Source: Jaminaea rosea (lineage: Eukaryota; Basidiomycota; Exobasidiomycetes; Microstromatales). From it: a stretch of DNA of 64,000 nucleotides. This document shows, piece after piece, positions 7,637 through 62,328 of the stretch. Location: positions 2,933,496 to 2,997,495 of the forward strand of contig NW_020289975.1 in the NCBI RefSeq assembly GCF_003144245.1. The letters run 5' to 3'. The position numbers were made by a program, and so were the translations under genes. Every line of letters begins with the position of its first letter. Positions within the stretch are counted from its first letter, which is position 1. The notes under the pieces were generated by a model. It ran no database searches. It was not told the origin of the DNA and was given only the letters and a program-made list of their open reading frames with translations.

Positions 7637-9464
7637 TCCTTGTGACGGTCAGAGTGGGAGGGTGTTGTGGGGGCGTGGCTGCTCAAGCTCACGCGCTTCG
7701 TCCGCATCCATGGAATGCTTCCACTTCGACTGCTGAGGAAAGAGAACCCTCATTGGTGCTGGCAAACGTAGAGCTTGTCAATGGCTACCTCGATCAACCT
7801 GAAACAAATTGACAGCGAGGCTTGACAGTCGTGACGGCCGGATGGTATCGCACCGCACTCGTCGCGCCGCCGCACTCGTCGTCGAGACCCTAACTTCAAT
7901 TTCCGACTAGCTCAGATTCCTACGAAGCCTAAAGCCGTAGACCCACCTTTTTGTTCATGCTCCGACAGAAGATCCGCTCGACTGCCCGACCGTGCGCACA
8001 CGCGCGCTTTTCCGCGTGGTACAACGGCGAGCTGACCAAGAGGTGTGCAAGCACTTCGGTGAGGAGTCACCATCACTCGCTGAAGTCGCTTTCCTTACCA
8101 CCGCTTGGTAGGCGACCGCGATGCTTGTTACTCCCGTCCTCGGCCCGCCCTGCGTTCGCTGTACGTGAGGCACGCATGGTGCTCCCAACAATCAACCTTC
8201 GCTCGGCTCGGCGGTGTCAACGAAGCTTCGCTTGGCTCGAGGCGGCATCGAACATCTCGTGGTCTTCACCACCTGAGTTAATTTGTGGAATCGACGAATC
8301 AGAAAAAGACTGCCATTGGTCGACACGCAGCGGGATCCGCGAGCTCCACGAGCTTGTGTTCGCTGCCTCGAAAGGTTCGCTGCCGACTCGTCACCCCCTT
8401 GGCGACGTCGTGCCGACTTACGTAGCGACGAACCTTGACCATCGCAGCAACAAACCTTGTTGGCGAGTGACCCTCCTGTCGTGCCTGCTTAGGCGACCAA
8501 AGAAGCTCAGGACGTCAATGCGGGAGACGAGGCGACGTCAAGCCACCGAGAAAGTTTCTTGCGCATTGCTAGCAAGCTATCGTGGATGTCGCTGCCCTTG
8601 CTTGGCCCTCGACACTGAAGCTTGAGGACCGCATCGTTGCGTGAGTGGTACGCGGTTTGCGGGGAACGAGATGCGGCGACGGACTCGTGGTGAGAGAGTG
8701 TTAGCTGACCTCAGGCCACCTGCCCATCTGTGTGCAGCACGAGGAGTGCGGAGATTGCGCGGAGATCGCGCGGAGTCCGCGGCGGAGAGCGGAGTGTGGG
8801 ATGGATTTGATCGATTCATTCGGCCTCGACTCGGGCGACGCTACAACTTCTCCGCCGCGGAATCCTCCTCAATGCGGTCGAGAGGAATGACCTACTCTCG
8901 CGCTTGGTCTCGCGCTTGGTCTCGCGTGGCCGGTAAGCTATAGGCTTCGAAGTGGGTCCCGTCTCACATCGTTCGCCAAGCCCATCGCGTGGGTGGAATG
9001 TTCGTCGTCGGACGGCGACCAGACGTTAAGCTTCTTATGAGACGTCGTTTTGAGCTTCTTCTGTCGCGTGGGGACATAGCAAAGGGCGGGGCGATAGCTA
9101 CGTTAGCTCGCAAGGATCTGGCTGACTTCCATTCGTGGAAATCGGCGTTCTCTCCAGCCCACCACCTCGGCATGTTACCATGTCGAGAGGAAGGCGAATG
9201 TGGCCGGAACGGGAGCAAACGGCGCCTTCCCAACCACGTGGTGATGGTCACCCCGCATGGCCCGTGCGAATTTGGTTCGACGGCGATCACGCAAGCAACC
9301 GCTCGCCTCGCGTTGTTCTCGCCGCCGTGGTGACCTGATCGCGAAGCATTGCGAGATGGAACACGTTTCGCCGTGTGCCGGGTCCGTGGTAGTCATTCTC
9401 GACTGTTGAATTCTGTCTTGCACCTTCTCAATCCAACCATATTCTCTTGCGCCCTCCTTTTGCG
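7637..9464. other. Intergenic, divergent promoter region
   Basis: About 1.8 kb between divergently transcribed genes. The longest open frame (7951-8625, 224 codons, plus) has no domain-like pattern and starts in featureless sequence, so I do not call it. A short imperfect repeat of tctcgcgcttgg occurs near 8897-8930. The last part should hold the promoter of the reductase-dioxygenase gene. Confidence 0.45.
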
Positions 9465-12002
9465 ATGCCTGTAGCACCATCAGCCTCGACGGTCCTCGTC
9501 ACCGGCGCCTCCGGTTACATCGCCGTGCACGTCGTTCACCAAGCGCTCAAGGCTGGCTTCAATGTCGTCGGAACTGTTCGCTCCGAAGAAAAGGGCAGGT
9601 ACCTCGAGCAGCTCTTCGCCAAGCAGTACCCGGGCAAGTTCAGACATGCCATTGTCGCTGACATCGAGCAGCCGGGAGGATTTGACGAGGCGGTCAAGGG
9701 TGTGCAGGCCGTCCTCCACACCGCATCGCCATTCCACTTCAATTCCGAGGGCAAGGCGCTCGACGCTCTCGTAAACCCCGCGGTCAACGGCACCAAGTCC
9801 GTTCTCAAGAGCATCAAAGACCATGGCACCGAGGTCAAGCGTGTCGTCCTCACGTCATCGTTCGCCGCCATCCTTGACCCGTCCAACAAGACGCCGAAGG
9901 AGTACACCGAAAAGGACTGGAACGAGTCCAGCCCGGCTAACAGCGCAAAAGAGGGCAACAGCCAGAACCCAATGGACGCGTACCGCGCCTCCAAGTCCAT
10001 GGCAGAGCGCGCTGCATGGGACTTCGTCGAGCAGGTCCGTGTAGCCCCCGGCTAGCTTGCTTGGTCACCTACGCTGACATTACACCCCCGTCTCTTTGCA
10101 GGAGCAACCACAATGGGACCTCGCAACCATCAACCCGCCCTTTGTCCTCGGGCCCGTCCTCCACCAAGTCAACTCGCCAGACTCCCTCAACACGTCAGTC
10201 GCCAGCATCTGGAAGCTCATTCAAGGTACTGGCAAGACCGAGCAAGACCTTCCCGGGCCGGCAGGCTGCGTCGTTGACGTACGCGATGTGGCTGCGGCTC
10301 ACATCAAGGCACTTCAGGTCGCCGATGCGGGTGGGGAGCGCTTCGCCCCAACCATTGGCCAGTGGACTTGGCAGAATGTCGTCGACATCGTGCATGACGC
10401 GAGCTGGATCCCCGGAGAGTACAAGGACAAGGTGCCCAAGGGAAAGCGTGGCAACTACGACGTCAAGCAGAATGATTTGTCCGGTGCCAAGACGGAAAAG
10501 GTTCTCGGCGTCGAGTATCACTCGCTCAAGAGTACCATTGAGAGTGGGTACGCGGCGCGACATGTGGCGAGGAGATCGCTGCTGACCCCCGTCACCCATT
10601 CTCCTGCGCAGCCACCGTCGGATCGCTCCTCGAGTACCAGGCGCGCGACTGGCAAGGCGCCCCCGCTCTCCCCGCCGTGTAGGTGTCTGTGCACCGTATC
10701 ATGCAATACTTCATGCCTCTCACATTCTCTCATCCCGCTTGCCTGAATACCCGCGCATGCTGATCGCCCCACGTACAGCGACATCGACCTTCCTCCCTGG
10801 ATCCCTCCCAAGCAGACTAGCGAGTCCGGCCTCGAGTGGGCGCCCCTACACACCCTCGACCTGAGCCGCGTCACGATAGAAGGCGACCACACGCACGTAC
10901 CTGAGGATGTGGTGCGCGATGTAGGCCAGGCATTTAACACGATCGGCTTCATTTATGCCGTGGACCACGGACTGACCTATGGCGAGCTGCTCAGGCAATT
11001 TGCGATTGGACAGTACCTCCTCAACAACGTGTCAGACGAGGACAAGGAGAAATTCCGCGCGAGAATTCGCGAAGACGGCTCCTTTGTCGGATACAAGCAG
11101 CAGGGCAAGTGGCAGCTTGATGGTGTGCTTGACCGCGTAGAGCAGTGTGAGTGCGCGCAGCGGAGGTCGAGTCATGGCATTGAAGTTGGTGCTGACACCA
11201 CGCACCGCGTTCAGGCAACTTCGGCTCCAAGTCCTTCCAACCGTCGATCGCGTCCAAGACCTTCCCGCCCTCCGTCCAACCCTTCATTCCCGAGATCTTG
11301 GCCTTTGCCCGCTTCAATCACGCAGTCATTTACCGCAAGCTCCTCGCCGTCTTTTCGCGCATTCTCGATCTCGACTCCGAGTTCCTCTGGAACCTCTCGC
11401 AGAACCCCGAGGAGCGTGGCCTCGACCTCCTGAGGTACGCGCTGTACCACAAGCCGAGCCAGGCGGATGACGATAAGCTCGGCGGCGTGCGTCTGAACAG
11501 CCACACGGACTTTGACTCCGTCTCGATCCTCTGGAGTCAGCCCATCACCTCGTTGGAGGTCCTCATGCCAGACAACCAATGGCGACTCGTAAAGCATCGC
11601 CCCAACGCTCTAGTTATCAATGCGGGCGACGCGCTCGCTTTCGTCTCGGGCGAATACATCAAAGCGACAATTCACCGCGTTGTCAAGCCTCCGCAGGACC
11701 AGGCTTCCTACCCACGTCTCGGCGCATTCTACTTTGCCTTCTTCAACGAGGACACCCCGCTCTCTCCTCTCACGCAGTCCCCCGTCGTGCAGAAGGCTCT
11801 CGCGGGACGACAGGGCAAGCCGTTCTGGCCTGCCGAGGTGCCAACTTCGGGCAAGTGGGAGCAATTGCGCGTTAAAGCGTACGGTGCTGGCGGGGAGAAG
11901 AAGGGAGAGGACGGACACACGCACGAGGAGTTGGCGGGGAGGAAGGTGACGTACCATCAGGGTCAGACTGTTCAGGCGAGGAGGCAGGCGCAGGTTGCCT
12001 AG
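9465..12002 (+). CDS. Predicted SDR reductase / 2OG-Fe(II) dioxygenase fusion
   Basis: Model: exons 9465-10034, 10102-10543, 10612-10678, 10779-11146, 11215-12002; 744 residues, all phases consistent. Residues 1 to ~350 are an atypical short-chain NADPH reductase of the Gre2/dihydroflavonol-reductase type: nucleotide loop TGASGYIA (13-20), TVRS for NADPH, YRASK with Tyr173 and Lys177, then INPPFVLGP. A linker (ALPAVDIDLPPW) leads to a 2-oxoglutarate/Fe(II) dioxygenase of the isopenicillin-N-synthase-like superfamily, with His579-Thr-Asp581, distal His636 and Arg650 (YPRLGAF). The dioxygenase exon at 10779 is open in frame but has no Met before VLMPDN, beside the iron site. The only ATGs between 10683 and 10778 cannot splice to it. 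The 100-nt intron (GTAGGT...TACAG) joins the two parts. Substrate unknown. The alternative is two genes with an unseen start. Confidence 0.7.
10680..10682 (+). other. Intronic stop that would end a reductase-only form
   Basis: If the intron 10679-10778 is kept, translation of the reductase stops at this TAG straight after ...GAPALPAV, at a natural length for a Gre2-like enzyme. The stop overlaps the GTAGGT donor itself, so splicing decides between a reductase and a two-domain protein. This is a prediction from sequence only. Confidence 0.45.
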
Positions 12003-12303
12003 TGCGCGAGGCGTGCGATCACACCATTTCGTCCTTGAATAGAATACTTTGTGCTTGAGCGATGCAGCTAGCTCGAGGTCATGGCCGCGTGGGCGCATGG
12101 CGCGTGGCGTGTGAATCCCTTCTCGCCCCTCTCGCCCCCACTCGCCCCTCTCGGCAATCGGCCCGAGTCGAAGAAGCTCAATCGCTCTTCCAATTGCCGG
12201 ACGCGGGGCGCGTCAGCTCGCTCGCCGTGGCATCTCGTCGTGTCTCGCCCGCTACTCCACCTTCTTGTCCTCCCTTCCATCACAGCACCACGATATCGTC
12301 ACA
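12003..12303 (+). other. Short intergenic spacer, same-strand genes
   Basis: 301 bp between the dioxygenase stop and the DUF2470 ATG. It contains CCCCTCTCGCCCC-type pyrimidine-rich sequence, likely leader of the next gene. Nothing else is seen. Confidence 0.5.
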
Positions 12304-13123
12304 ATGGTCACCACGCGTCGCCAACAAGCCTCAACGGGCGGTCCCTCCACGGGCTCACCGCTCGGCCCCACCCCTCCCGCATTCGAAGGGGCAGTCACCC
12401 ACATGAATGCGGACCACCGGGCCCACCTTTCCTGCATCGTTTCGCATCACCTCTCCCTGCCTGGCCCTCCGAGCTACGTGAAGCTGGTACGAATGGATGA
12501 AGCGGGGTTGGAAGTCGAGTACGAGGAGGCGGAAAGCTTTTGGAGGAAGCCCGTCAGGCGAGGGGTCAGGATTGGGTGGGAGGAAGTAGGAGGTAGTACG
12601 ATTGAGACGGGCAGCCAGGCGAGGCCGCTGTTGGTCAAGATGACGAGGGAGGCGCAAGAGGGTTTGACGGGACGCAAGAGAAAGGTGAGTGCGGGCGGCG
12701 GATGTCAATGGTGCTGCAAACTCGGCTGATGTATCCGCCTCTTCGCTCGCGCAGCCCCCAATCCGCTACTCGCTCCCACCCGAGGTCCCAGGCGCACTCA
12801 TCCTCTTCGCCGTCCTGCACTACCTCTCAACCACCCACCCGCTCACTCACCTCCCCGAGCCTATCCTCTCGTCCATCTATATTCCCCTGCGCAAGGCACT
12901 GCGCCTCGAGACGTCCATCCCGTTCCTGCTGCGCTGGGTCGCCTACGCGCATGTCGCCGAGTTCTTCCTGATGCTCGGGCTGGTGCTAGGCAAGAGGGAA
13001 GGGCGCGTAGGGGCTGCGCTGGCTTGGGCAGTCAGTACTCTACCTGTAGGCTTCCCGACTTTCCAGCGATTCAGCAAGCTGAACCCGACTTGGAAGCTCG
13101 ACGAGGGAAAGAAGGAGCACTAG
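12304..13123 (+). CDS. DUF2470 domain membrane protein
   Basis: Model: exons 12304-12684 and 12755-13123, 70-nt intron (GTGAGT...GCGCAG, phase 0); 249 residues. Residues ~28-125 fit DUF2470, a small domain related to the C-terminal part of HugZ-like heme-utilisation proteins; the diagnostic start is the AVTHMNADHRAHL phrase, followed by LVRMDEAGLEV. The second exon encodes two or three hydrophobic segments (ALILFAVLHYLS, FLLRWVAYAHVAEFFLMLGLVLG, ALAWAVSTLPVGF), suggesting an integral membrane protein. It ends TWKLDEGKKEH, a basic/acidic cytosolic tail. Its 3' end converges on FIG4 with only 83 bp between stops. Family assignment is good; cellular role in fungi is not established as far as I know. 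Confidence 0.8.
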
Positions 13124-17293: not shown

Positions 17294-19047
17294 ATGGCTC
17301 ACCAAGATGGTCTCGGAATTGGTGAGCAGCCGCGCAAGAGAAGCAACGAGAATGCAATCTCACTCTGATCTGCCTTCGCTCCCTCGACAGGCATTGCCAA
17401 TCTGCCCAATCAGGTGAGGAGCTGCAACGAAGTCCAACCTCTCGTCGTCTGATCGGCGATGCTCATCATACCTCTTTCCCTGTCTTCTCGCACGCAGCGT
17501 CACCGCATTGTCTCCAAGGCTGGCGCCCACTTCACTCTGATGGTCGTCGGAGAGTCTGGCGTAGGCAAGACAACTTGTAAGTAGCGGCAGCTGTCTGTAT
17601 GCAGTTGGCCATTCATTCATCCTCTTCTGGACCCCCCGCAGTGATCAACACCCTCTTCTCTACTGAGCTCGCCGCCAGCAAGGTGAGTCTGCAGCGTCTC
17701 TCGCTCCGCTCAAAGTCAAAGGCTGATCCCATTTCCCACTTGCTCGCTCTGCCAGGACTACTCTCGCCGCCATGCCAAGCAACTCGACAAGACCGTTGAG
17801 ATCGACATCATCAAGGCGGAGCTCGAGGAGAAGCAATTCAAGTGCAAGCTCTGCGTCATTGATACTCCCGGCTTCGGTGACTACGTCAACAACCGCGACT
17901 GCTGGACGCCCATTGTGAGCGAGCGAGCGAGACTGCTGAATCGTAGAGGGTCGATGCCTAGGACACGAAGCTGATATGCTTCTACCCTTGCACTCTCAGG
18001 TCGACTTCATCGATGACCAGCATGAGATGTACATGCGTCAGGAGCAACAGCCTGAGCGTAATGAGAAGACGGTGAGCAGAGAAGGCGAATGTTCAGACGC
18101 CGACTGCGATGCTGACTCCTCCTAACGCCCCAACCGCCAGGACCTTCGTGTTCACGCCTGCCTCTACTTCATTCGTCCTACCGGCCACACTCTCAAGGTG
18201 AGCAGCAACGGCAGCAACGACATCGCCGCCGTCATCTCATTGAAGCTGACGATCCGTTTCCCGCACCCACGCAGCCCCTGGATATCGAAATGATGAAGCG
18301 CCTCGGCACTCGTGTCAACCTCATTCCCGTAGTCGCCAAGGCCGACACTCTGAGCCCCAAGGACCTCGCCGTCTTCAAGCAGCGAATTCGTGAAGTCATC
18401 AACACGCAAGGGATCCGCGTCTACTCGCCCCCCATCGAGGTAGACGACGAGGCCAGCGCAGAGCACGCCAAGACGCTCATGAGCGCCATGCCCTTCTCGA
18501 TCATTGGGTCCACGCAGGACGTTCAGACCCACGATGGCCGTACAGTCAAGGGCCGTGACTACCTGTGGGGTGTGGCAGAGGTAGAGAATGAGGAGCACTG
18601 CGACTTCAAGAAGTTGCGTTCGCTCTTGATCCGCACGCACATGCTCGACCTGATCACAACGACCGAGGAGCTGCACTACGAGAACTACCGTCAGACGCAG
18701 ATGGAGACGAGGAAGGTGAGCGAGCGCGGCCCAGAGCACTCATCTCCACGCATGCTGACGTGCTTCACCCCTCTCTTGCACAGTTCGGCGAGCCCAAGGT
18801 CAAGAAGCTTGACAACCCGAAGTACCGCGAGGAAGAGGAGGCTCTGCGTCGTCGCTTCACCGAGCAGGTCAAGCTCGAAGAGTCGCGCTTCCGTGCTTGG
18901 GAGTCGCACCTCATCGCAGAGAGGGACAGGCTCAACAAGGACCTCGAGCAGGCCCATGGCTCAATCAAGGCGCTCGAGTCGGAGCTGGACGCGCTGGGAG
19001 GCTACGGCAGGCAGAATGCCGGAGGGCAAAGCACCGCTAGGCGTTGA
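17294..19047 (+). CDS. CDC12: Septin, Cdc12 type
   Basis: Nine exons: 17294-17321, 17391-17413, 17498-17576, 17642-17682, 17756-17914, 18000-18071, 18141-18197, 18275-18715, 18784-19047; eight introns of 65-85 nt; 387 residues. GTP-binding septin that assembles into filaments and rings at the bud neck or septum. P-loop GESGVGKT (35-42), switch DTPGFGDYVNN, AKAD specificity motif and the septin unique element WGVAEVENEEHCDF are all present. The start (GIGIANLPNQRHRIV) and the FIRPTGHTLKPLD phrase match Cdc12 more closely than Cdc3, Cdc10 or Cdc11. The last ~90 residues are a charged coiled coil. The first two coding exons are only 28 and 23 nt and are easily missed by gene finders. Paralog assignment is less sure than the family. 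Confidence 0.93.
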
Positions 19048-38779: not shown

Positions 38780-39115
38780 AGCGAGGCCTGCAATGGCGCC
38801 AAAGACGCAGGGTTGGTGGCGATGATGGCCATGTGAGCGATAAGGTCGATGATGATGAATGAAATGAGGCTCGAGCTGCCTCCGCTCCTCGCTGCCTTTG
38901 TCCAACTTCAAGATCCGACGACGCGGATGTGAACGACGCCCACTCACTCTCTTTCCGTCCAGCCCAGGCTACAAGTCGGATCGGAATGGCCCTGTGCAAA
39001 CCACGTGGCCGACAATGACAAATGGGAAGGCCGGCTGGACGTGGTCATCGTCGTCGACGCCGACGTTTCCCCACCTCCTCAATCTCCACTCCGCCACTCC
39101 TCATCACACGCCATC
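38780..39115. promoter_or_regulatory. Divergent promoter, WD protein / complex I 24 kDa
   Basis: 336 bp between divergent ATGs. Part of it is open in frame with the WD protein, so a 5' exon of that gene may lie here. No named site seen. Confidence 0.3.
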
Positions 39116-40386: not shown

Positions 40387-42208
40387 ATGGTCCGCCTCCC
40401 GCGCGAGTCGCTCCTCTTCTCATCGCCAAACCACCTCTGTCTGGTCGATGTCGCCCATCCAAAGCCTTCAGCGCCCGTCGTGAGCCTCAAGCCGTCCTCT
40501 TCGACGCCTCCTCCAGCGCAATGCTTGTCCGTCGTTCCTCCTGACCCCTCGCGTGGTAGCCAAGGATTGGCAGCATGGGTCGACGGTCCGAAGCGCAATA
40601 TCATCTACGTCTCGCCTCTTTCCACGCCGACCTCCTCATCATCGTCAAGTAAACAGGCCTCGCCAACTGCAACACGCTGGCATCCCCCGCAACCGGTCTC
40701 CTCACTCTTGCTCAGCCCGGACGGACGCCTCCTCCTGGTAGGATGCGACGATGGGCGTGCCTACCTTTGGGAGGTGAGCAGCGGTCTGCTTAGAGCGACG
40801 TGGGAGCCACACTTTCGTGCTGTGTCAGCGATAGCATGGAGTGCTGATGGCGGGATGGTGGCTACGGGGAGTGAGGATGGCAGAGTGTGTGTTTGGAGTA
40901 TTGTAGGGTGAGTACGACTCAGGCTCGATCTGGGCTGGCCGAGCTCCTAGCTTACGCATGACCCTTTGCAGTCTCTACCATCCCTCTGGTCCCCATCCGC
41001 AACCCTACGCAACTCTCTCCTCCCACCTGCTCCCAATCACAGCCCTCTCCTTCTCCCCGGCAACATGCAATTCCACCCCTTCGCGCGCCCAACTTTGGTC
41101 GGCAAGCAAGGACGGGACAGTCAAGCTGTGGGATATGCGCAGCAGATCGCTGCTGGCGGATGTGGTTGATCCGGCAGGTATTGCAGCAGGAAGCGCGAAG
41201 GGTGGGGCATCTCCTGCGGTAGACGCTCTGGCAGTTGATCAGACGGGACGCTTTGCCTTCGTAGCGGCTGGTGGGCAAGTGAGTCGCATAGACGTCTACA
41301 AGAAGATCTCGGAGCCTTCCTTCGCAGCAGCAACAGCAGCATACGAGACTTTCGACCCCTCCTCCTCCTCTTCTGCAACCGCCTCGTCATCGCGAAGTAT
41401 CTCCCTCCCCACCAGCTCCGGTCGTCCAACGTCTCTCTGCGTCTTGCCCTCCTCTTGCACACTGGCAGTAGGAACTGCGCAGCCTTCCGCCTTGCTATTC
41501 GTGGATATCGCCTCCCGCCAGGTATTGCGGAGTGTTTCCCTCGCCGGGGAGGGGGCGACGGCAACCTCAGCAGCAGCAACGGGCGCTGTAGGAGTGACAA
41601 ACGTGGCGGGGATGTACAGGCCCAACGAGGACGAGAGGGGCGAGGGATTCGTGGCGAACAAGGCAGCAGCAGCCCCGAGGATCATTGCAGCCAAATTGGA
41701 TCGCGTCGTACGCTCGGCGGGCGGGGTTGGCGCTCATGGCGTCGAGGAGGGAGAGGAGGAAGACGATGAAGAGTACTGGGCTATCCTCCCTGACAGGTGG
41801 GACGCTCACATGGCTGAGGTCGCGCCCTCTGCGTATCCCGCCACCGCTGGAGCAGCAGCAGCAGCCTCCTCGGTACCTCAGACGAACGGAGCCGCGGCTT
41901 CGACTAGTGATACGGAGCTTCAGTCGCGTCTCAAAGCCTCAGAAACCCGTACGGCGCAATTGGAAGCGCAGGTCAGGCGAGCGGCCAAGTTGAATGACGA
42001 TTTGTGGGGAATGTTGGTCAAGGGAGGACATGTGAAGCAAGGCGAGCAAGCTGGCGCTGCGGCTGTGGCAGGGACTGAGAAGGGAAAGGGGGATGAAGAT
42101 GATGAGGAATCGGAGGTGGAAGAGGAGAAGGAAAAGGGCAAGACGACACGCGCCTCACGGTCCAAGGCAACCGCGGGTAAGGGGAAGCAAAAGCGGAAGC
42201 GCCACTGA
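40387..42208 (+). CDS. IPI3: WD-repeat protein, probable Ipi3/WDR18
   Basis: Exons 40387-40907 and 40972-42208; 64-nt intron, phase 2; 585 residues. WD40 strands: PVSSLLLSPDGRLLLVGCDDGRAYLWEV-like (~95-125), AVSAIAWSADGGMVATGSEDGRVCVW, then LWSASKDGTVKLWDMRSR. The C-terminal part has a short coiled coil (ELQSRLKASETRTAQLEAQV) and a strongly acidic then basic tail ending KGKQKRKRH, typical of nucleolar proteins. Overall layout fits Ipi3/WDR18 of the Rix1 complex, which acts in ITS2 processing and 60S pre-ribosome export. The assignment rests on domain order and tail, not on a unique motif; another ribosome-biogenesis WD protein is possible. Confidence 0.75.
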
Positions 42209-42394: not shown

Positions 42395-45300
42395 TCACGC
42401 GTCCTTCCTGAGGCCCGCAGCAGCCGGCGGACTACTGCTCTTCCTCCTTCCAGCCCCGTAAGCCTGCGCAACCCCCTTCCTCGTCGTCTCATCATCGAAC
42501 ACCACCCTGCCCCCAATGAACGCATATGGGTAGTCCCGCTGGTACGCGTTGCACACCGTCTTCCTTCCCGCGACACAGGGAGTGCTCGCCCAGCTCCCAC
42601 CCAGGACAACATCGTGTCGCCCGTCGTGGAAATCGGCACTGTAACCCGGGTAGAGGATGGAGGGTACGAACCCTTCATGAGCGGAGAAGGCGGTACAGGT
42701 CCATTCCCACACACCGCCGTTGTGTCCGGGAAGACCGAGGGAGTTTGCGCCGCCTTTGGCTGTGATGTTGGTGGGGAGGGCGGCAGGGACCGGGTGCCAA
42801 TAGCGGAATCCGACGTTGCTGCCCGGTCGGTCCACGCAGTTGGGAGACGTGGCAGAGTCGAGGAAGCGACGGAGCTCGGCATGCGTAGGTAGACGTCCGC
42901 CTGCCCAAGCAGCGTAGCGACGTAGCTGTGCGCCTGAGCCCGTGACGGGCCAGAGGCGGGCGACGGTAGCCAGGGGCACGGGGCCGTAGATGGTGCGGAC
43001 ATTGTAGTCATGGCTGGACTTGCTGCCGGTGCCGGTTGCCTTGATCCAGGAAGGGGGAACGTCCTGCTCCTGATAGCCGGTGGCGGCAACGAAGCGCAAG
43101 TACTGCTCGTTGGTGACCGGGCTGGCCGTGATACTGAAGGCCTTGGTCTGCTCCTTGCGCGCGGGCTGCTCGTTGTCCCACCCGAACTCCGGGTTGCCCA
43201 GCTGCGCATTGAGGGCTCGCACATCCTTAGAGGGAGCTTTCGTCTCGAAGTCTGTGTCGCGGCGGTCATCATCATCGTGACCGATCACCACGGTGTCGGC
43301 CTTGAAGTTGACGAGAGCGTTGCGCTCTTCCTCGCCTCCCTGTCGAGCGTCTTCCTTCTCCCACTGGCGAGTAAGAGACGCCCAGTCCGGCTGCGAGAAG
43401 CCGACGGGAGGTAACGTCTCGTCGCTCTGTGCCAGCATGTAGAGCAGTGTCTCCTGATGCAAGTCGATGTGCTCCTGCACCATCTTGATGCACCTCGCGA
43501 CATGCCTGTTCAATGTGCGCTTCCCGCTCGCGAAATCAGCATAGATTCCCACGAGCCTGTCCATCACCTTCTCCCTGTACGCCAAGATCTCTTCGACCTT
43601 TGGCCAGTCCTCCTCCGACTGAGGCACCTCGCTGTGCGAGTGGCACTGCGTGGGATCGTCGACGTGTGGGTCGATGCCGCGCTCGAAGATCTTGTTGTAG
43701 TATGCGTCAAGGGGCTCAAGGTCGGGAAGAACCTTCAACAGGAGGATGTCCACGAAAGCGGGAATGTGCCCGAGGTAGAAGAGGCAGATGTGACGCAGGT
43801 CGATTGGTTTGACGTGGAGCCTGGTGAGCAAAGGGGGAGCAAGAAGGTCAGTTGAAGGCGATCTCTTCGTATTCATGGAGGTGGTGCGCGTGCTCACATT
43901 CGGCGAGAGATCATCGTCAGGGTAATCACGTCCCAGCTTCGCCAGCTCGACTCCCTGGGCACGAAGAGGGCACGAAGAGGGCACGAAGAGGGCACGAAGA
44001 GGGCGCGAAGAGGGCGCGAAGAGGGCGCGAAGAGGGCGCGAAGAGGGCGCGAAGAGGGCGCGAAGAGGGAAGCGATGGGTCAGCGTGTGCCTACGTATGA
44101 CGCGTGCCGCCTCTGACTTACCACTCGTCGAGCGAGGGCATCCCCCAGGACCCCCAAGCCTCATGAGGCTTGGGCGGCCCACCAACACTGAATGCGCTGG
44201 ACCCTCCATCAGCGTCAAACTCGTGCGACCCATTACTGTTATGAGCCTCCTGCACCGACAAGCCCTTGCCGACTTGCTCGCGCCATCCAGTCAAGAGGCG
44301 CGTCGACTGGAAATGGAAGGGAGTCTTCTCCACCAGCCAGAGGTCGTAACGCTCATCGTCATCGGTCCATTTCTGGACGACGCGCAGACCAGCATGATCG
44401 AGGGAGTCGAGAGTCTCACGCTCAGCGTACTTGTAGCTGCGCTCTACGTGGATGAGCTCGCCTTCCTCCAGCTCGACCGTCTCGCCGTCTGGGAGGGTGA
44501 GGAGTTGCGTCAGGAGAGAGCGATAGTAGCTTTCGTGACGACCCTCGACATCGTTGTATCGATCATGATACTCGAACCTCGCGGGGTCAATCACCCCTTG
44601 GCCGCCCAGAACGCGGTCGGCGTGCTTGAGCCCATTCATGACGAATGAGGCTGTCAAGCCCTTAGGGTCGTTGTACGCCAGCTCGATGTCCCTCGCAGCG
44701 TTGCGGCGGTCAATGCCGATGAGCATCTTGTCACCGGCTCGCATCGACTTGTCGGCCATGGACTTGAGGAACTCAGCACCATCACGGCGTTCGAAGTTAC
44801 CAATCGATGAGCCCAGCCAGAGGAAGACGCGACGCCCATCCCCGAGCCCGCCGTCGGCGATGTGCTCGAGCCCTTTGTCGTACGTGGCCCACAGGCCGTT
44901 GATGGCTACCTTTCCATCGAGGATGGTCCACTCATCGCTGACGCAGGCCTCCTCCTTTCCTTGACCTCCACTCGTGCTCGAGCCCAGCTGCGAGCGGAGG
45001 TCGTGCAACGTGCGTACAAGCTCAGACTTGTCCAAGTCCAAAGCATAGTATCGCACGGGGTCCTGCTTCTTCAGCCCGGGCAGCTCGCCCAGACCACGAA
45101 GCAGGTGAATGGTCTTGCGCAGCGAGCCGGCGCCAAGCTCTACGACGGCGGCTCCGGCAGCTGGTGAGCCACCAGAGCCGCAATCGTCGAGACCGTGCTC
45201 CGAGTTGACGCCGCCGTTGTGACGGCCAACGGTAAAGTCGCCCCACTTCTCTTTGAGGGTGCGATACTCTTCGAAGTGGAGACCGTCGAATACGGGGACC

Positions 45301-45992
45301 TATGAGCGCGTGGGTCGGGGGAGTGTCAGCATGGTCGCCCATCAGCCTCGCCTTCATGTGCGGCACACGCACATCCTTGTCGTCCTTGTTGTGCTCGTGC
45401 TTCTTCTTGTCCTCGCGCTCGAAGTCCTGCTCGCTGAGTGCTTCGCGGAGCATCTGCAACGTCTCCTCAGTCTGATGACCGAAGAGACGCAAGGCAATCT
45501 CGCGGCCATGCTTCTCCAAAATTGTCTTCTCGGCCTTCCAGAGGTAGTACTCGGGTACCTCGACCATCTGTACGGAGGTGCAAGGGCGGGTCAGCATAGG
45601 GTCATCCACTCCTTGCGCCCTGCCACTCTCCTGCTCACCTGATCGTAGATCTTCAAGCCGGCCTCGTCATATAGCAGCGTGGTAGGCAATGTCTTCCTGT
45701 ACGCCCACTCCACATCTTCTGCGCGGTCGGTGCTGCCAGGCACCGTAAGCGTGGCGTGGCCCTTGAGTCCAGCAATGACCTGACGCTTGAGCTCCTCAGC
45801 CTGGCCCTCACGATCTTGTTCGGGAGATCCAGATTGGAGGTCTACTACGGGCGGCTCCTCCTGCGCAGTACCATTGGTTCCAGCCACCTTGGACGGGACG
45901 CTACTGTTAGGCCCCGTCTTGAGCGACTTGGCGGCCGGTGGAGCCGTAGGCGTCGGTGCCGCCGACTCTACTGTCGTGGCGATGGGTGCCAT
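42395..45992 (-). CDS. EGT1: Ergothioneine biosynthesis protein Egt1
   Basis: Exons 45639-45992, 45373-45567, 44122-45299, 43898-43954, 42395-43820; introns 71, 73, 167 and 77 nt; 1069 residues. Bifunctional enzyme making ergothioneine from histidine: an N-terminal EgtD-like SAM-dependent histidine trimethyltransferase (LLYDEAGLKIYDQ, VELGAGSLRKT, LWLGSSIGNFER) and a C-terminal EgtB-like iron sulfoxide synthase. The DinB-type half has the HX3HXE iron motif at His712, His716, Glu718 (HIDLHQE); the FGE-sulfatase half includes GGRLPTHAELRRFL, GGVWEWT and GGSW. The 57-nt exon must be read as ESSWRSWDVITLTMISRR, joining LDEW to MLHVKPIDLRHICLFYLGH, which matches fungal Egt1. The third intron is swollen by an 11-bp minisatellite. 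Confidence 0.95.
43958..44067. repeat. 11-bp minisatellite, 10 units, in EGT1 intron 3
   Basis: Four units GGCACGAAGAG followed by six units GGCGCGAAGAG on the plus strand, head to tail with no gaps. On the coding strand the array is CCTCTTCGCGC, a pyrimidine-rich block ending beside the acceptor CAG at 43955-43957. It accounts for 110 of the 167 intron bases. Confidence 0.95.
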
Positions 45993-50962: not shown

Positions 50963-51660
50963 TTAGGCGACGAGGGTGGAAGCGGTGGCAGCCTCGTACT
51001 TGAAGGTGGGAGGGACAGCACCGACGCGCTTGTAGTAGCGGGCGAGGCGGTGGATACGCGACTCGATGAGAATAAGGCGGAACTGTGGGCGTGAGCGGGG
51101 CAAAAGAAGGTTAGATGCTGGCTAGCTGAATGTCGAGTGTCAGAATGGGCTCGACTCACCTTGGAGTCCATGTCCTTCCTGTTCCTCTCAAGGTGCTTGC
51201 GGACCGAGACGGCCTTCTTGATGAGGTGGTACAGGTCCTCGGGGATGCTGGGAGCGAGGCCCTCCGACTTGAGGATACGGAGGATCTGCGAGGGGGCGGT
51301 GAGAAATGAGAAAAGTCAGTCTTGTATTCACTCTCTCGGCTCTGTCCCTAGCCGCCCGCACGCACCTTGTTACCAGTGACGAATCGGACCTGGCCAATGC
51401 CCTGCGAGTCACGGAGCTGGACACCGATCTGCGAAGGGGTGAGACCCTTGCGTGCCAGCTTGAAGATCTGGGTAGAGACCTCCTCAGGGGTGGTCTTGAG
51501 CCACGAGGGGGCAGAGCGCTTGTAGGGCAGAGCGCTCGAGGCGATACCCTTTCCGTTGGCTGCGAGTGGGAGAGGGTAAGATGATGATGATGATGAGCAG
51601 GGGCGCTCACGCTGCCAGATAGGTTGGTGTCTACGCCAACTCACAGTGCATGCGACCCAT
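50963..51660 (-). CDS. RPS13: 40S ribosomal protein S13 (uS15)
   Basis: Exons 51645-51660, 51366-51559, 51160-51285, 50963-51082; introns 85, 80 and 77 nt; 151 residues, the usual eukaryotic length. Starts [20 protein letters not shown] and ends [14 protein letters not shown], both diagnostic. Core: [67 protein letters not shown], and [13 protein letters not shown]. Small-subunit protein binding 18S rRNA in the platform. The first coding exon is only 16 nt. A probable 5'-UTR intron lies upstream (see the feature at 51962). Faces RPS30 across 1.29 kb. Confidence 0.97.
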
Positions 51661-52951: not shown

Positions 52952-53222
52952 ATGGGAAAGGTCCACGGATCCCTCGCGCGTGCCGGTAAGGTCAAGTCGC
53001 AGACCCCCAAGGTCGAGAAGCAAGAGAAGGCAAAGGTCCCTCGCGGCAGGGCAAAGAAGAGGCTCTTGTACAACCGCCGGTGAGTAGGCTGTCGCGACCT
53101 CAACGCGCACTCATTGTCAGTCAGTGACTGACTCACCCTTTCCACCCGTCTCGCCCACTCGCAGCTTCGTCAACGTCGTCGCCGGCCCCGGTGGCAAGAG
53201 GAGGATGAACCCCAACAACTAA
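52952..53222 (+). CDS. RPS30: 40S ribosomal protein S30 (eS30)
   Basis: Exons 52952-53079 and 53165-53222; 85-nt intron, phase 2; 61 residues. Starts [20 protein letters not shown], continues [19 protein letters not shown] and ends [12 protein letters not shown], which is diagnostic for eS30. Highly basic small-subunit protein near the decoding site. There is no ubiquitin-like FUBI leader, as expected in fungi. Starts at the ATG at 52952, preceded by CAAAA, a normal fungal start context. Confidence 0.97.
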
Positions 53223-53708: not shown

Positions 53709-56700
53709 TCAGCTCTGCACACCTGCCCACACTCCATCCGCTGAGCCCCTCGTAGTCGCCTGGCCCCCCGCCAGGCTGGGCGAGGGCACCGTAGACCTTG
53801 CCGATGCTGACGTATTGGTGGAAGGGACCGCGCTACCCCTCTCTGCGTGTCCAGACTGGCCGAGAAGATTCATAATCTCGTCCTCAACACGACGACGCCC
53901 CGCGTCGCTCTGGCGCAGGAGTGAGGTGGTGGCAGAAGTGGACTTGCTGTTGAGTCCGCTGCCGTCCGGGCTGCTGGGGGAGAGGAAAGAGTCTCTGCCC
54001 TGCTGGCCAGTAGGGTCGTCCTCCTCCTCGCGATACGCGCGAGAGATGGGTCGCATCCCTGCCCCTACGTCAGAAGTACGAAGCTGTGCTCCTGGTTGCT
54101 CCGCTCCCTCTCCACCGACTGTTCCACCACCCTCCTCGAGCAACCTCCGCTTGACAGCATAGTACTGCTTAGGGTCAAAGAGGAACTTGCCGCCATCCTC
54201 GTGCTGTCGGGCCAGGGACTCGAGGAGTTGCTCTAGCTCGACATCATTGGTGTAGACCACTCGCGTGTCTAGTGCCTGATCGGCAAGACGGAGATTGAAG
54301 GCGCTCTGAGCTGCAGCCAGTCGCGCGTCTTCAGAGGAGAGGCGAGGTTGAGCTTCGTCTCCTTGCTGTTGAGCTGCTTGCCAAGGTGCGAGTGGCAAGT
54401 CGGGCATGCCTTCCTCGCCACCCTTGTACCCCTGCTTACGCTGTCTCATCGCCGCGGCTACGTTGCTCTCGGTCCTCTGTCTTTGGAAGAGACTGCGTGA
54501 GTCGTCCTCTCCGTCTCGTAGGAGGCCAGTGAAGGTTCGGCCACCTTCCTCAACGCTCGGTCGGCCCTGCTGCTGATACGTCGAATGTCCCGTAGCCTGC
54601 GGTAGGAGGCTGCCGTTGCTTGCATCGGCGTACGAGTCCCTGGGCGGTCGGTTGAGGAAAGAGAATTGCGATGCATCGCTGTTTCCCCTCGTGTGCCCGC
54701 CAGGAGGAGCAGCAGCCGTAGCGCCCTCTTCTCCGCTTCGTCTCTCGCCCTCGCCCTTGCCCAACCCAGCAATGATTTGCCAAACGACCGACCCGTCCGC
54801 CCTCTCCGTGACCTCAATATGACTGCCCGTGGGCACCTGCGCATGATTGAAGGCCGACGAGCCGGGGCGAGAACCGTCGTAGAGCGAAGCGCCATCGCGG
54901 TCTTCATCGCCGGCAGCGCCCGAAGGACCGATGTACATGTCGTAGAGGGAGCCGGCATACGAGCCGCCGTCAGCGCCACCAGTGGCGGTGGAGACGCGTC
55001 GCGTGCTGTTGGCGAAGCTGGGCGGTCGTAGGCTGGCGGCACCGAACTTGCTGGCGCGGGACATTCGCATGGTTGCTCTATTCGCTCCGCCGGCATTATC
55101 CTCTGATCGACGAATCTGCGACGAGGGTCGCGAAGCCTCATTGCCCGCGCCACTTCCACCGGCGATCAGAGCAGCGTAGCTTGCATTTGCCTCGTCGTCA
55201 TCAAACTCGCCTGCCTTGTTGGGGCGAGACTTGCGTCTTGAGGCGACCGACGGGGCGACAGAGGAGGCGACGCTGAGGCGGCGGCGTTGCTCTTCGTTGG
55301 CGGCGGCTTCGTTGGGGAAGATGAGAGTGCGACGAATGATGGTGTTGCGTGCAGAGGAGGAGGCGACGGCTGGGGCGATAGATCCGTTGGCTGGCGGGTC
55401 GCTCGTCGGGAGGCTGCCGGATGTGGCCGTGGACACGCGGTTCTGCGGTGCCGAGGAAGCTTGAAGCTGGGCTTGCTGTTGTTGGGGCTGCTTCCACGCG
55501 GGAGCAAAGCCGCCAAAATTGTCCTCCTGGATAGCTGCAGGGGAGCCCAGCAGACCCTTAGAGCCACCGCTCTCGTTCGCTGCGAGCGAGTGATCTGCAG
55601 TACTCGAGGTGCGCCAGCTATCCTCGTTGGCCAGGGGAGCAGATGGCCCAGACCAGTGTCCCAGCGCAGACGTCTCACTGCGGTCAACGATGGGGCTGGG
55701 CATCATCCCCGTCAGGCGACCAGCGGCACCGCTCTCCGGCAACGTCGAGTCTGTAGACAGGCCGCCCGCACCTCCAGCTCCTCGCCCTGCAGGGCCGGCA
55801 CTCTCGCCAATGCCGAAAGGCGAAGGGCCACGCATGGGTGTGCCCCTGTCAGGCAGCATCGCCGAGCCCGTTGCGCTATGATCAGCAGCAGAGAGGCTGG
55901 GCGACTGCTGAGTCACAGAGGGCGACCCTTCCTCGGTAGGCTTGCGTACGCGCATCCTCGACATGAGGCGACTGAGGCTGCCGTTACTGCTGGAAGCGGG
56001 CAGAGTCCCTGCAGCACTCCCTCCGCCGGAGCTCTTGATCGAAGCTGGGGTACCAGGAGCGACGAGGTTGCCTGCGGGTGCTGGCGCGCTTGCTGGCGCG
56101 CTTGCTGGAGGCTCACGTAGGGTGCGAGACGCTGGAGGCGTCCAAGCAGCCGCGGTACTTGCGGGCGCGGCAGATGTCGGGCTGGACCACTCTTCGGCTC
56201 TGGAGCTAGGCGTGTCCAATCGACCTCGATGACCGAAAGAGCTAGAGCGACGCATGTGCAGCAAGGTCGCAGGCATCGTCTTTGGATCGTTGCGGTAGTC
56301 GCTTGCTTGCCTGAATGGCGGGCGTCGTTGAGTCGCAGCGTCGGCCGTCTGACTGCGCGGTGACTTCTTGTTGACCGTCGGCTCAGGGATCGGTTGTGCG
56401 TGACCCATGTACTGGCTCGTCGTGAGCAGTTCGGGCGCGCCAATGAACTTGCCTGGGTTGCGCTTAGCCTTGCGCTTCGAGAGGATGCGCGACCTACGCG
56501 GCAGGAGATGAGGGCCGCCATCTCCTGAGTGAGGGCCTTTCAGCGCGGCCGTAGCAGCTTGGGCTTGCGCGGCGACGTCATCCACGAGATTGGGGGTGAA
56601 GCCTTGCCCCTGGCGTGGGGAGCGGGAGTCTGACCATACCGACTGGGCGGAATGAGGGCTGCTCATGTTGGCGGCTGCGCTGGCGTTGGCGTTCCCACCC

Positions 56701-59700
56701 GCGCTGGCGTACGGATGGCCCTGCTGCATCGATGGGTACGACTCGTCGTCGTAGCCACCCTCGGCATCGTCCTCTTCGATTGCGGGAGCGAACAGCCCAC
56801 CGTAGTCGTGCGATGTGCTGCCTCCGGCGGCACGGCTATGCCCATCGGAGAAGCTTTCAAAGTTGGCCGCCTTGTCGAGTGCCTGCTCAAGCGACATAGA
56901 GTAGGAGACGCTGTCTGGCTGGATGCCGTTGAGGATGTTGAGGTCCTGAATCGTGGGCAGGCCGCCTGATGTGCGGCCAGGTGGTGGAGACGTAGGGCGA
57001 TGACTAGACGTGACGTCATACATGACTTCGCGACCTTTGAAGGAGCGCTGCGAGTTGGAGTGGGACATTCGCGCAGATTGACTGGCAGGCCAAGCAGAAT
57101 CCTCGCTGGACGTGACTTGAGCTGTTGGGCCTCGAGACGGTGAGCTTGGCGTCGATCCGCTAATCGAGCCTCCCCTCACTCGCTCAGCTGCAATCTGTCT
57201 CGCCCTCTCTCGCGCCTTTTCAAGCTTGACAGGCGAGACTGGTGAGAGAGGCTGCACTAATGCACTCTGCGCTGGCCGTTCTGGTGACAGAGGCTGCACC
57301 GTTGCCGTCTGCGCTGGCCGCTCTGGCGACATCGGCGGCGGTATCGCGTTTGGGTGCGAGGCAGGGAGTGGGATGGGCGGGGCGATAGGTCCAATAGGTC
57401 CCATGCCATGACGCTGGCTGACGGAGCGGACAAGGTTGGCCTGGATCTCTGCAAGCTGATTGACCGTATCGCCGTTGAACTGGCTAGCGGCCTCTGCGGG
57501 CGGCATATGGCTGACCGGGCGGTACTCGTCCATTGTCGGTACGAGGGATGAAGTCTGTCCGGCACCGAGTCCACGAGATCCGCTCGCAGCCGCGTCCCCT
57601 TCTTCTGTGCCCATGTTGCGGGCCACCTTGGCCCACACATCGTCGACTTCAGGCTCCTGTTCGAATTGCCTCTCAAAGTCGGAGATGTTCGACTCGCTCC
57701 CACCGCCAATGCTTCCAACGTCGCTGGGCGAAGCCAGGCTCGGCTGGCCGTACGTCTGCCGCCAGCGTTGTGCGAGGATAGGGTCGTGGGTCGGCGGCTG
57801 AGGAAAGAGACCGCCCGTGGTTGGACTCAGGACATCCTCCTGCGATGCATTGATTGCCCGCTGCGTGTCGACGTTGGCTGGCGGAGGCTGGCGCCGGACG
57901 ATGCTGCTGAAGCCTTGCGAGGGAGTGTTCGTGGTCGCAGCCAAGGCGCTCGACGCAGCAGCGAGGCTGCCGTCATTGACCAAGGGAGCGCGATCTGAAG
58001 TTGACCCGGCGGGCGTCGATGGGCTGTTTCTGAAGCCGCTTGCGTATTCGAGGGGCAGCGTCGTCTTGATGCCTCCGCCAGCTGAAGGGAAGTAGCGCTG
58101 ACTTCTCGCCGCGATGTTCCCAGCGGAGATAACTGAGGCGCTCGTGCCGCTGCTAGAGGAAGGTGGGGTACTCGCAGCGAGGCTCGCGTTGCCGGCAGAC
58201 GAGGGCTGTACGGGTCTTCGTGGAGCTGAGTTTGCAGCGCCTTGCACCCTAGGCGTCGTCATGACTTCTGGCCTAGGGGTCTGCTCCAGCTGAGGGGTGC
58301 GTTGGACGTCTTCGTGAATGGCGACGCTGGTAGCCGTTTCTTCCTTGGCGGATCTGAACGACTCGCCGTCCGAGTCTGATGCCTCCTTGCCGCGTGAAGT
58401 CAAGCCTCGTAGGAGGTGACTCTCGTCGCTGACCTCGTCGTCCGCTTCATCCCCACGATTCGAGCGAGTCGCCATACCTTCTGCGAAGAGATTCTCCCCC
58501 GCCAACGAGTGGCCGCGACTTTGCTCCTCGTCTTCCATCTCATCCTCGCCGCCGTCTTCTCCGTCCTCCTCGTCCGACTCCTCTGCGGAGATGGCGTCGA
58601 TCTCGTAATCGCCGTCGTCTCCCGGTGCGCCGCCAAAGCGAGGCAAGCTGCCAGGTGACACGATGCCGATGACCTCCTCGAGGGCGGTGCTGACTCGGCG
58701 AAAGGCTTCCGGAGAGAGAGCGGACAAGAGCTGCGATTGACGCTGTGGTTGTTGGAGGGTGGGAGGAGCGAGGTGTGCGCCGCTTCGCTGCGCAGCGACC
58801 TGTGACTGCGCATCGCCAAAGCCGCCTGGCACAGCAACATCGTCCTGAACCGCTCTCTCCTCTTCGGGGTACTGCAGCTCTACTTCTTCTTCTTGCGTTC
58901 CCTCGTCCTCCTCCTGCTGCTCCTCCTGCTGCTCCTCCTCCTCCTCTTCCTCCTCGATGGGACTCGCCATGCTAGCTACCTTGCTCTTGTCGAGGCTGCG
59001 CAAGTAGGCATTGTCCCTCTCTGAGCTCCTACCAGAGAAGAGACTGCCGCTGCCGCTCGACGGAAAGCTCGAGACGTTCTTGAGCTCGCCGAGACTCTCT
59101 GTCAAGGAGCCTATGCGGTCGGCTGCCGAAGACCTCTCACCAGTCGAGGATGCATACGATGCGCCGAAGCCGTCGCTACCGGATCCGACGGTGAATCGAT
59201 CGCGATTGGTATCGCCATCCTGGCCATTCGCCTGCGCAAAGAGCGTCTGCTGTCTCATCTGGTCGATGATCTCGTCCTCTTCTTGCTCGGTGAGGAAGTT
59301 TCCCCCTGGCTGGCCAGTAGCGCGTGCTCTGGCTCTCTGAGCTCGAAGCTGCGCTCGCATTGCGTCAGGAGTAACCATGGTACCGTCTGGGGCTCGTAGA
59401 AGTGTGAAGCGACGAGTGAGGTGGGGCATGATTAGTGATGTGCCTGCGAGGATGGGATGGGGCGGGTAGAGCACGGGATGTCAGTCCGGCGTCTCTGCGA
59501 CTTCCTTCGAGCGCATGTCATCCTCACGGTAGTCGCTCTCTGGTGGTAGGGAGAGGAGTGCTCCTGACGACGACGACGACGTTGATGCAGCATTGTCATT
59601 CTCGTGTCTTTGCTGTTGTTGCTGCTGCTCCTTCATCTGCTGATTGCGCTGGGCGAGACCGATGCGAATGCCTCCCGGCTTCGAGGGCTGGCGAGCTTTT

Positions 59701-60510: not shown

Positions 60511-62328
60511 TCAGTGGACAATCTGCCAGATGGCCTCATCATCCGCCGTCGCCTTGACACGGTATCCCTCCTTAGCCCACCTCTCCCTCTGCCTCACCGA
60601 AAAGTGCATCTTGGGCTCCGTCTCCCTCACAGTACGGTACCGCCCGCGATTCAACCCAATCTTCTTACGCCATATCCCCGTCTCCTTGTCCTGGATACGG
60701 TACTTGATGGGCCAGGCCAGCTCGAGGATCCACCACACCTTGGCCTGCTTGAGCTGGTCGTTGAGCGACGCAATCGAGTCAAAGTAGTCCTCGTGCGCCT
60801 CATCGAGGATGTCGAGTTCATCGACCGGGGAGCCGTTCTCACAGACGCCGCGTACCATTGAGCGTCGGGAGTCGAGAGTAGGCAAGTCGCCACGCGCATG
60901 CCTCTCGAGGTAATTGGGAGATGGCCCAACTGCAGGCTCGCTGCGGGGGAGCACCTTGGGGTATAGCGTCTCGACGTCGAGGCCATGCTCTGCCAGGACG
61001 TCGGTACGGTAGAGCAAGCCCGTATTGCACTTGAAGGTCTCGCGGATCATCCAGCGCAGCGGGATGCGTGATGCTTGGTGACGCTCCGAGTTGGGGACAG
61101 CACCGCCGCCTACATCTGCGTGGCTGCCAGCAAACCAGACCTGCGCGGGCGCAGCGTAGAAGAAGATCAGCAAAGCTGGAATTCGCGCGTTGAAGGTTCG
61201 GTCCCGACTCACCTCCTCGACGTCAGTCTGGAACGGAGGACGACCCCACTCCCTGGCATCCTTCTCCTTGAATTCCTTGATCAGGTTCAATTGCCGCTGA
61301 CTCTTCTTCACCTTGCGCTTAGAGTCGCCGAGGTCCTCAGCCGTATTCGCGTCTCGGAGGGTGGTGGACGAGTTGGACGTGGCTAGCGAGCTGGGATCGG
61401 TCGTAGAAGGGCTCATCTGCTGCGACTGCTGCGCTTTCGTGGTCTTCGCTGGCGGCGCACCCTGCTCTGCGTTATCGTAGAGCCCCTCAAGATCAAAGGT
61501 ACCGTACACTCCGTAGCTCGACTCGCGGCCAGACGAATCGACGTGGGTGCCTCGTCCTGCACCTCGAGTGCGGCGACGATGCTCGCGAACGGCATCCTCG
61601 GTCTCACTTCCCTTCTTGGCCTTGGCTGGATGGCGTTGGTACCAGTGATTGGCCTTAAATTTTGCTCGGCGCTCGTCGAGGGCGAGAGCGTGACGAAAGA
61701 AGGCGACGGAGGAATTGTCGCTCTTGGCTAGAGGTAGGATACGAGGGATGACTCCCACGCTGGCCACCGTGTCCCAGCAACCCAAGAAGTGCACGTTGAC
61801 GTCGATGGAAAAGGTACGCTTGAAGTCGGCGCTCATCTGCCATCCGTATGCGCTATCATCGCAGTACCAATCGTATGCAAAGGGAAGCTGAGCGATGTTG
61901 TGCCTGGGGAGCAAGCCGACCTTGGTGAGCATACCGCAGAGAGCTCGCGCCGTGTATGCTCCCCTCGAGAAGCCCAGCACGCTGATCTTGTCACCCTCTC
62001 TGTACGTCTGCATCAGGAATTGGTATGCCTCCTTGACGTGTGTGCCGAGTGAAGAGCCGATAGCCATGTCGAGGGCAGCAGAGAAGCCGGTCTTCAAGGA
62101 GCTCTTGGCAGATGAGGTGTAGGTGCCGACACCGCATTGATAGTAGCAGAGCTGGCGCGGGTCGTCCTTGCGTAGGGCTTGGAACAGCTTGACGACGTTG
62201 CTGTTGTCGCCGTCGAACATGTCACCGGTCCCATCGCATAGGAGGCAGATGACGCGGGGGGGGGGCGTCGATGCTGTTGTAGAGTCAGCGACGGCTTCCA
62301 CCGTGGCTGGTATGCGTCGGAGCACCAT
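60511..62328 (-). CDS. DUF2235 alpha/beta hydrolase
   Basis: Exons 61213-62328 and 60511-61140; 72-nt intron (GTGAGT...GCGCAG, phase 0); 581 residues. DUF2235 (T6SS phospholipase effector-like) hydrolase family, common in fungi. Family start ICLLCDGTGDMFDG (27-40), nucleophile elbow GFSRG with Ser121 in LGFSRGAYTARALCG, then FLGCWDTVASVG and VWFAGSHADVGGG, carrying the likely acid Asp and His. The intron is a multiple of three with no stop, so the frame reads through it, but only removal gives VEEVWFAGSHADVGGG as in the family. A charged linker separates the two halves (~235-370). No signal peptide or transmembrane segment is seen. Substrate is unknown; lipid ester hydrolysis is inferred from relatives. 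Confidence 0.88.
   Translation of the reverse strand: MVLRRIPATVEAVADSTTASTPPPRVICLLCDGTGDMFDGDNSNVVKLFQALRKDDPRQLCYYQCGVGTYTSSAKSSLKTGFSAALDMAIGSSLGTHVKEAYQFLMQTYREGDKISVLGFSRGAYTARALCGMLTKVGLLPRHNIAQLPFAYDWYCDDSAYGWQMSADFKRTFSIDVNVHFLGCWDTVASVGVIPRILPLAKSDNSSVAFFRHALALDERRAKFKANHWYQRHPAKAKKGSETEDAVREHRRRTRGAGRGTHVDSSGRESSYGVYGTFDLEGLYDNAEQGAPPAKTTKAQQSQQMSPSTTDPSSLATSNSSTTLRDANTAEDLGDSKRKVKKSQRQLNLIKEFKEKDAREWGRPPFQTDVEEVSRDRTFNARIPALLIFFYAAPAQVWFAGSHADVGGGAVPNSERHQASRIPLRWMIRETFKCNTGLLYRTDVLAEHGLDVETLYPKVLPRSEPAVGPSPNYLERHARGDLPTLDSRRSMVRGVCENGSPVDELDILDEAHEDYFDSIASLNDQLKQAKVWWILELAWPIKYRIQDKETGIWRKKIGLNRGRYRTVRETEPKMHFSVRQRERWAKEGYRVKATADDEAIWQIVH

Follow-up and report, generated by a model that had tools for sequence, protein, structure and literature searches.

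Gre2-type NADPH-dependent methylglyoxal/carbonyl reductases (4pvc, 6kws, 5b6k, 5gmo) are single-domain chains of 334-366 residues, carrying the cofactor motif TGxxGxxA and the catalytic motif YxxxK of extended short-chain dehydrogenases/reductases (SDRs). Dioxygenases of the DIOX_N/2OG-FeII_Oxy kind, including the bacterial proteins annotated as 'isopenicillin N synthase family oxygenase', thymine dioxygenase (5c3p), TropC (6xjj) and SpoC (9l52), share both Pfam domains and the H-x-D...H iron triad and C-terminal Arg that serve the Fe(II)/2-oxoglutarate (2OG) enzymes. In a 64,000-nt stretch of the basidiomycete Jaminaea rosea (contig NW_020289975.1, positions 2,933,496 to 2,997,495; hereafter the window, 60.4% G+C and free of N), members of both families lie one behind the other. 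With this composition and with CTGAC/CTAAC-like branch motifs in its introns, the window reads as fungal nuclear DNA, which fits a basidiomycete. Judged from the sequence, positions 9465-12002 of the plus strand probably form one five-exon fungal gene for a fused reductase-dioxygenase; each family is known, and their combination may be new.

Splicing of the five predicted exons yields 744 codons followed by a stop, with no internal stops, and the introns measure, in order, 67, 68, 100 and 68 nt (coordinates in Table 1). On the spliced frame Pfam places Epimerase at residues 10-268 (E = 1.4e-16), DIOX_N at 385-488 (E = 3.1e-10) and 2OG-FeII_Oxy at 562-644 (E = 7.6e-12), all above the Pfam cut-offs. 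The predicted product would be a bifunctional oxidoreductase of 744 amino acids and about 82 kDa, in which a Gre2-like reductase, a proline-rich linker of approximately 25-35 residues and a 2OG dioxygenase follow each other.

The N-terminal half is, by homology, a Gre2-like NAD(P)H-dependent carbonyl reductase of the extended SDR type. Residues 9-349 align with the yeast GRE2 chain 4pvc over residues 2-341 of its 342, and positions 1-232 of the 240 in the Epimerase profile (PF01370) are covered, which bears out the earlier description of this half as a complete Gre2-like reductase. The spliced protein contains TGASGYIA and YRASK, aligned with SGATGFIA and YRGSK in 6kws. The domain is alignable nearly end to end with the Gre2-type chains, but 384 residues are added after it. 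Gre2 homology stops 11 residues upstream of an in-frame TAG at 10680, which is discussed below.

The C-terminal half is, on the same kind of evidence, an Fe(II)/2OG dioxygenase of the DIOX_N/2OG-FeII_Oxy kind with a complete domain. DIOX_N scores 41.2 bits (cut-off 27.3) and is followed by 2OG-FeII_Oxy with 45.9 bits (cut-off 23); the H-x-D, the distal H and the R are aligned in five of five sequences. Three annotated bacterial relatives are separate proteins, each with a start of its own, unlike the present dioxygenase. These relatives begin at about residue 15-16 of what is visible of the dioxygenase exon, which reaches about 15 residues further towards the N terminus, so that only a start codon is lacking and the fold appears whole. 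Plasmid-encoded relatives showed 24.5-27.2% identity among the 20 listed of 129 records, while the plasmid search at DNA level gave no matches; a PF03171 family search made through one plasmid record found the family in that record and in one of 14 control genomes. Close kinship to isopenicillin N synthase proper was not found among solved-structure sequences, the best such chain being 9s1j (E = 2.9e-4) versus 1.3e-14 for 3oox.

What carries the single-gene reading is the absence of a good alternative start for the dioxygenase, a stronger argument than the chance estimate for the join given below. Traced upstream, the dioxygenase frame runs into the TGA at 10744 with no in-frame ATG in between, its first Met is residue 240, and the SHTD of the iron site already begins at residue 218, so the first-pass annotation was right that no Met precedes the iron site. 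The ATGs at 10701, 10713 and 10757 are each out of the dioxygenase frame. An upstream first exon of its own, overlapping the reductase gene and spliced into 10779 or nearby, was sought among ATGs from 9301 on, allowing a single intron no longer than 400 nt. In total, 156 formal routes into the frame exist, but the best scored 3.2, compared with 8.96 for the intron 10679-10778 and 10.3-18.8 in the first reference set of introns, and the top-ranked routes use introns of 215-347 nt against 67-88 nt in that set. Such an exon is highly improbable, and the earlier statement that no ATG could be spliced to the first visible dioxygenase exon holds in the sense that none does so comparably well.

Another reading is translation of two proteins from one bicistronic mRNA, with the second frame begun at a non-AUG codon or by re-initiating ribosomes, and two sources make bicistronic expression a real possibility in fungi generally (PMC4503453, PMC10352335). 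Here, however, re-initiating ribosomes would meet the three out-of-frame ATGs, and the second reading frame has no in-frame AUG before the iron motif, which makes this explanation very unlikely. Stop-codon readthrough was rejected as well, since the frame past the TAG runs into a stop at 10761 without reaching the dioxygenase frame.

The two halves are instead connected in frame and in matching phase by the proposed joining intron 10679-10778, whose removal would eliminate the apparent stop codon of the reductase; splicing in vivo is what we infer from this arrangement. The intron was compared with 16 reference introns of the window, namely 14 retained from 24 called by a strict gene finder plus two from the target gene, 10544-10611 and 11147-11214. 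The ten set aside as doubtful were 10912-10994, 11123-11214, four of the model 17294-17974, 18072-18197, 18198-18274, 40908-40971 and 53080-53164. An 18-intron set added two introns read by eye from the putative Egt1 gene described below; the target gene contributes three of the 18, and the joining intron was never included. When 20,000 sites per strand were picked at random, 1.5% (plus strand) and 1.7% (minus strand) had a phase-matched join at least as good. Among 2970 stop triplets, 73 had one (2.5%) when the phase was drawn at random and 160 when any phase was allowed. A chance estimate of about 1.5-2.5% gives moderate support for the join.

In codon usage both halves resemble the other gene models of the window. 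With log-odds trained on 19 other models and the target gene excluded, the reductase scored +75.1 and the dioxygenase +66.4 in frame, and the five other frames of each were negative. This bears on whether the dioxygenase could be a pseudogene remnant. It does lack a start codon of its own, as such a remnant might, but its 384-codon open frame would arise by chance with a probability of about 9e-5 at the stop frequency of the window, the codon score is positive in frame only, and H-x-D, H and R are intact; the likelihood of a remnant is close to negligible. When its splice models were built from the 18 introns, a simple dynamic-programming gene finder recovered precisely this gene, 9465-12002 with the same four introns, whichever of the eight intron costs from 4 to 11 was set; at costs 6, 8, 10 and 12 it left the next tandem gene, 12304-13123, separate. 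The earlier, stricter gene finder overlooked introns 2 and 3 and predicted a reductase at 9465-10746 and a truncated dioxygenase at 10907-12002.

A number of observations weigh against a single gene, and several of them concern the joining intron. Its score of 8.96 is lower than that of all 16 reference introns (leave-one-out 10.3-18.8), with a fair acceptor (5.8 log-odds units) and a weak donor (1.1). At 100 nt it is longer than the reference introns (67-88 nt), which carry CTGAC/CTAAC-like branch motifs with the best one 21-48 nt from the 3' end; the joining intron has CTGAT at 19 nt and CTGAA at 36 nt. In the 18-intron set it scored 9.05 and exceeded one of the 18, the 167-nt inter-domain intron of the putative Egt1 gene (6.74). 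Its pyrimidine content (0.62) is higher than that of 15 of the 16 reference introns, and the 74 nt preceding the ATG at 10757 reach 0.66, within the 0.47-0.69 found upstream of 13 gene starts. The ten-base context of this ATG is identical to that of the gene start at 39357, though a later model starts that gene at 38822. The gene finder is biased toward joining because the dioxygenase has no ATG, and when the joining intron was forbidden it joined the halves through a different intron, 16.7 units lower; its codon model was moreover seeded partly with the spliced target gene, and the codon test given above repeats the comparison without it. Its support amounts to consistency, not proof. In exon 4 alone one antisense frame was positive too (+6.3 versus +19.8 in frame), the 15 NCBIfam matches all fell within the reductase half and below cut-off, none of the 189 matching plasmid records covered 80% of the fused query in a single place, and dioxygenase relatives were not confirmed by the patterns used in one viral-contig and one prokaryote genome-contig scan.

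With the 18-intron set, the joining intron nevertheless lies at the low edge of the reference range, inside rather than outside it, and the reference set is skewed to strong introns because most came from the strict gene finder. The in-frame splice between the domains has plausible signals, though weaker than nearly all reference introns. The first-pass annotation had called the intron canonical: its exact length of 100 nt, frame and phase all stand, while 'canonical' was generous for an intron of low score and unusual length with CTGAT so near its 3' end.

The main rival to the fusion is a pair of adjacent genes, the reductase ending at the TAG at 10680 and the dioxygenase starting near 10757, put out of frame by a mistake in the assembly or by a disabling indel of recent date, so that its start would be damaged or misread. 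The TAG does fall at a natural terminus, 11 residues past the end of Gre2 homology, exon 4 has its first whole codon 23 nt after the ATG at 10757, and the pyrimidine-rich sequence in front of this ATG resembles that before gene starts. A study of 20 fungal proteomes reports that errors led to an overestimate of domain gains by about two-fold (PMC10158824). However, the spacing from TAG to ATG would be only 74 nt, compared with 301 nt for the smallest other same-strand gap (12002 to 12304 in the cost-10 models), the phase-matched join would have to be a 1.5-2.5% coincidence, and the rest of the dioxygenase is open for 384 codons with a coding signature. We regard two genes as unlikely; were the fusion nonetheless a start-codon artefact, the locus would exemplify how gene callers create false fusions.

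The TAG itself is less telling than it appears. Phase-2 introns that start with GTAA, GTAG or GTGA present a stop codon at nucleotides 2-4 whenever they are retained, and this geometry occurs in 3 of the 14 reference introns with a computed phase. A further instance lies at 42395-45992 on the minus strand, where Methyltransf_33 and FGE-sulfatase match Pfam in two neighbouring frames; we take this gene to be Egt1 from the two matches and the EgtD-EgtB fusion architecture of fungal Egt1. Egt1 is an ergothioneine enzyme and an established EgtD-EgtB fusion. Its enzymes are unrelated to the reductase and the dioxygenase, and its fusion is already established, but like the predicted reductase-dioxygenase gene it is probably bifunctional and has an intron at the domain junction (43955-44121) that opens with an in-frame stop, here TAA at nucleotides 2-4. 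Since the same pattern is seen in the 3 of 14 reference introns and in this inter-domain intron, the TAG at 10680 is not decisive as a stop. The inter-domain intron was read from the three-frame translation; an automatic join search had not picked it up, as the frame is shifted by a further intron behind it. At costs 8 and 10 the gene finder, whose training set contained the Egt1 introns, reported Egt1 as a single gene (42395-45992). Separately, an 11-nt tandem repeat (43957-44069; 10.3 copies, 99% matches) lies entirely within the inter-domain intron, and its length could differ among strains.

Backed by complete domains, a phase that matches, the want of a good alternative start and the choice of the gene finder, the proposal that reductase and dioxygenase are one protein is the best reading of the DNA and probably the right one. 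The first-pass annotation further held that no protein of this architecture had been described, and none appeared in the places consulted. The solved-structure match lists of the reductase (38 entries) and the dioxygenase (39 entries) had no entry in common, no plasmid record matched 80% of the fused query in one place, and the titles and abstract openings among the literature matches listed contained no description of a reductase-2OG dioxygenase fusion. If the single-gene reading is true, the domain combination would probably be a new natural architecture.

As to function, the reductase would be expected to reduce a ketone or an aldehyde, and the tethered dioxygenase might hydroxylate or desaturate the same small molecule, or another from its pathway. 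Natural fusions often mark two activities acting in one pathway, and paired oxidation and reduction of one metabolite, as first suggested, is a reasonable guess. Among solved structures, the reductase matches carbonyl reductases and, more distantly, dihydroflavonol 4-reductase (2c29, E = 6e-22); the dioxygenase matches thymine dioxygenase, TropC, SpoC and, as a weaker relative, anthocyanidin synthase (2brt, E = 2.1e-6). In plants, dihydroflavonol 4-reductase and anthocyanidin synthase act in consecutive steps on one flavonoid. These weaker relatives of the two halves show that two enzymes of these kinds can work in one pathway, but they are separate proteins, and a flavonoid substrate is not implied here. 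If the fusion is expressed as predicted, it would suggest that the substrates of a Gre2-type carbonyl reductase and of a 2OG dioxygenase are related, and possibly offer a ready-made two-step redox catalyst. If the joining intron were retained, translation would stop at the TAG at 10680 and yield only the reductase. A switchable bifunctional enzyme, in which splicing of the weak intron gives the fusion, retention gives the reductase alone and the cell tunes coupled reduction-oxidation through splicing, is conceivable though doubtful.

Table 1. Features of the predicted reductase-dioxygenase gene and the control intron of the putative Egt1 gene, in window coordinates
Feature	Position	Strand	Basis
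Exon 1, start of Gre2-like extended SDR, Rossmann motif TGASGYIA	9465..10034	+	splicing, Pfam, structure-sequence alignment
Intron 1, 67 nt, GTCCGT...GCAG, CTGAC branch-like motif	10035..10101	+	splicing, intron scoring
Exon 2, middle and C-terminal part of reductase	10102..10543	+	splicing, alignment
Intron 2, 68 nt; Gre2-type homology continues through the splice up to residue 347-349	10544..10611	+	
Exon 3, end of reductase domain and start of linker	10612..10678	+	splicing, alignment
Proposed joining intron, 100 nt, GTAGGT...TACAG, phase 2	10679..10778	+	
TAG, nucleotides 2-4 of the joining intron; reductase stop if the intron is retained	10680..10682	+	
In-frame TGA closing the dioxygenase frame on its upstream side	10744..10746	+	
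Nearest ATG 5' of the dioxygenase, out of frame with it	10757..10759	+	
Exon 4, remaining linker and DIOX_N part	10779..11146	+	splicing, Pfam, relatives' alignment, codon statistics
Intron 4, 68 nt, GTGAGT...TTCAG, CTGAC	11147..11214	+	
Exon 5, 2OG-FeII_Oxy core (SHTD, TIHRVV, PRLG) to stop codon	11215..12002	+	splicing, Pfam, alignment
Egt1 inter-domain intron (control, outside the target gene), 167 nt, GTAAGT...CCCAG	43955..44121	-	three-frame translation

Judged by Pfam, the neighbouring genes include those for a tRNA pseudouridine synthase, a DnaJ-TPR protein, a PRP21-like splicing factor, a class I tRNA synthetase and the likely Egt1; as this set is unlike a biosynthetic cluster, it gives no clue to the substrate. 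No Rfam RNA element reached its gathering score in 9000-12400. Elsewhere on the minus strand, a stop-to-stop open frame of 1923 amino acids (53709-59480) had no Pfam match at E 1e-4, and 50963-51660 forms a gene model with three introns whose product presumably resembles ribosomal protein S13 and could help to place the organism. A strong match to the catalytic domain of the Tle1-like phospholipases of T6SS (E = 8.1e-79) was found at 60511-62397 of the same strand.
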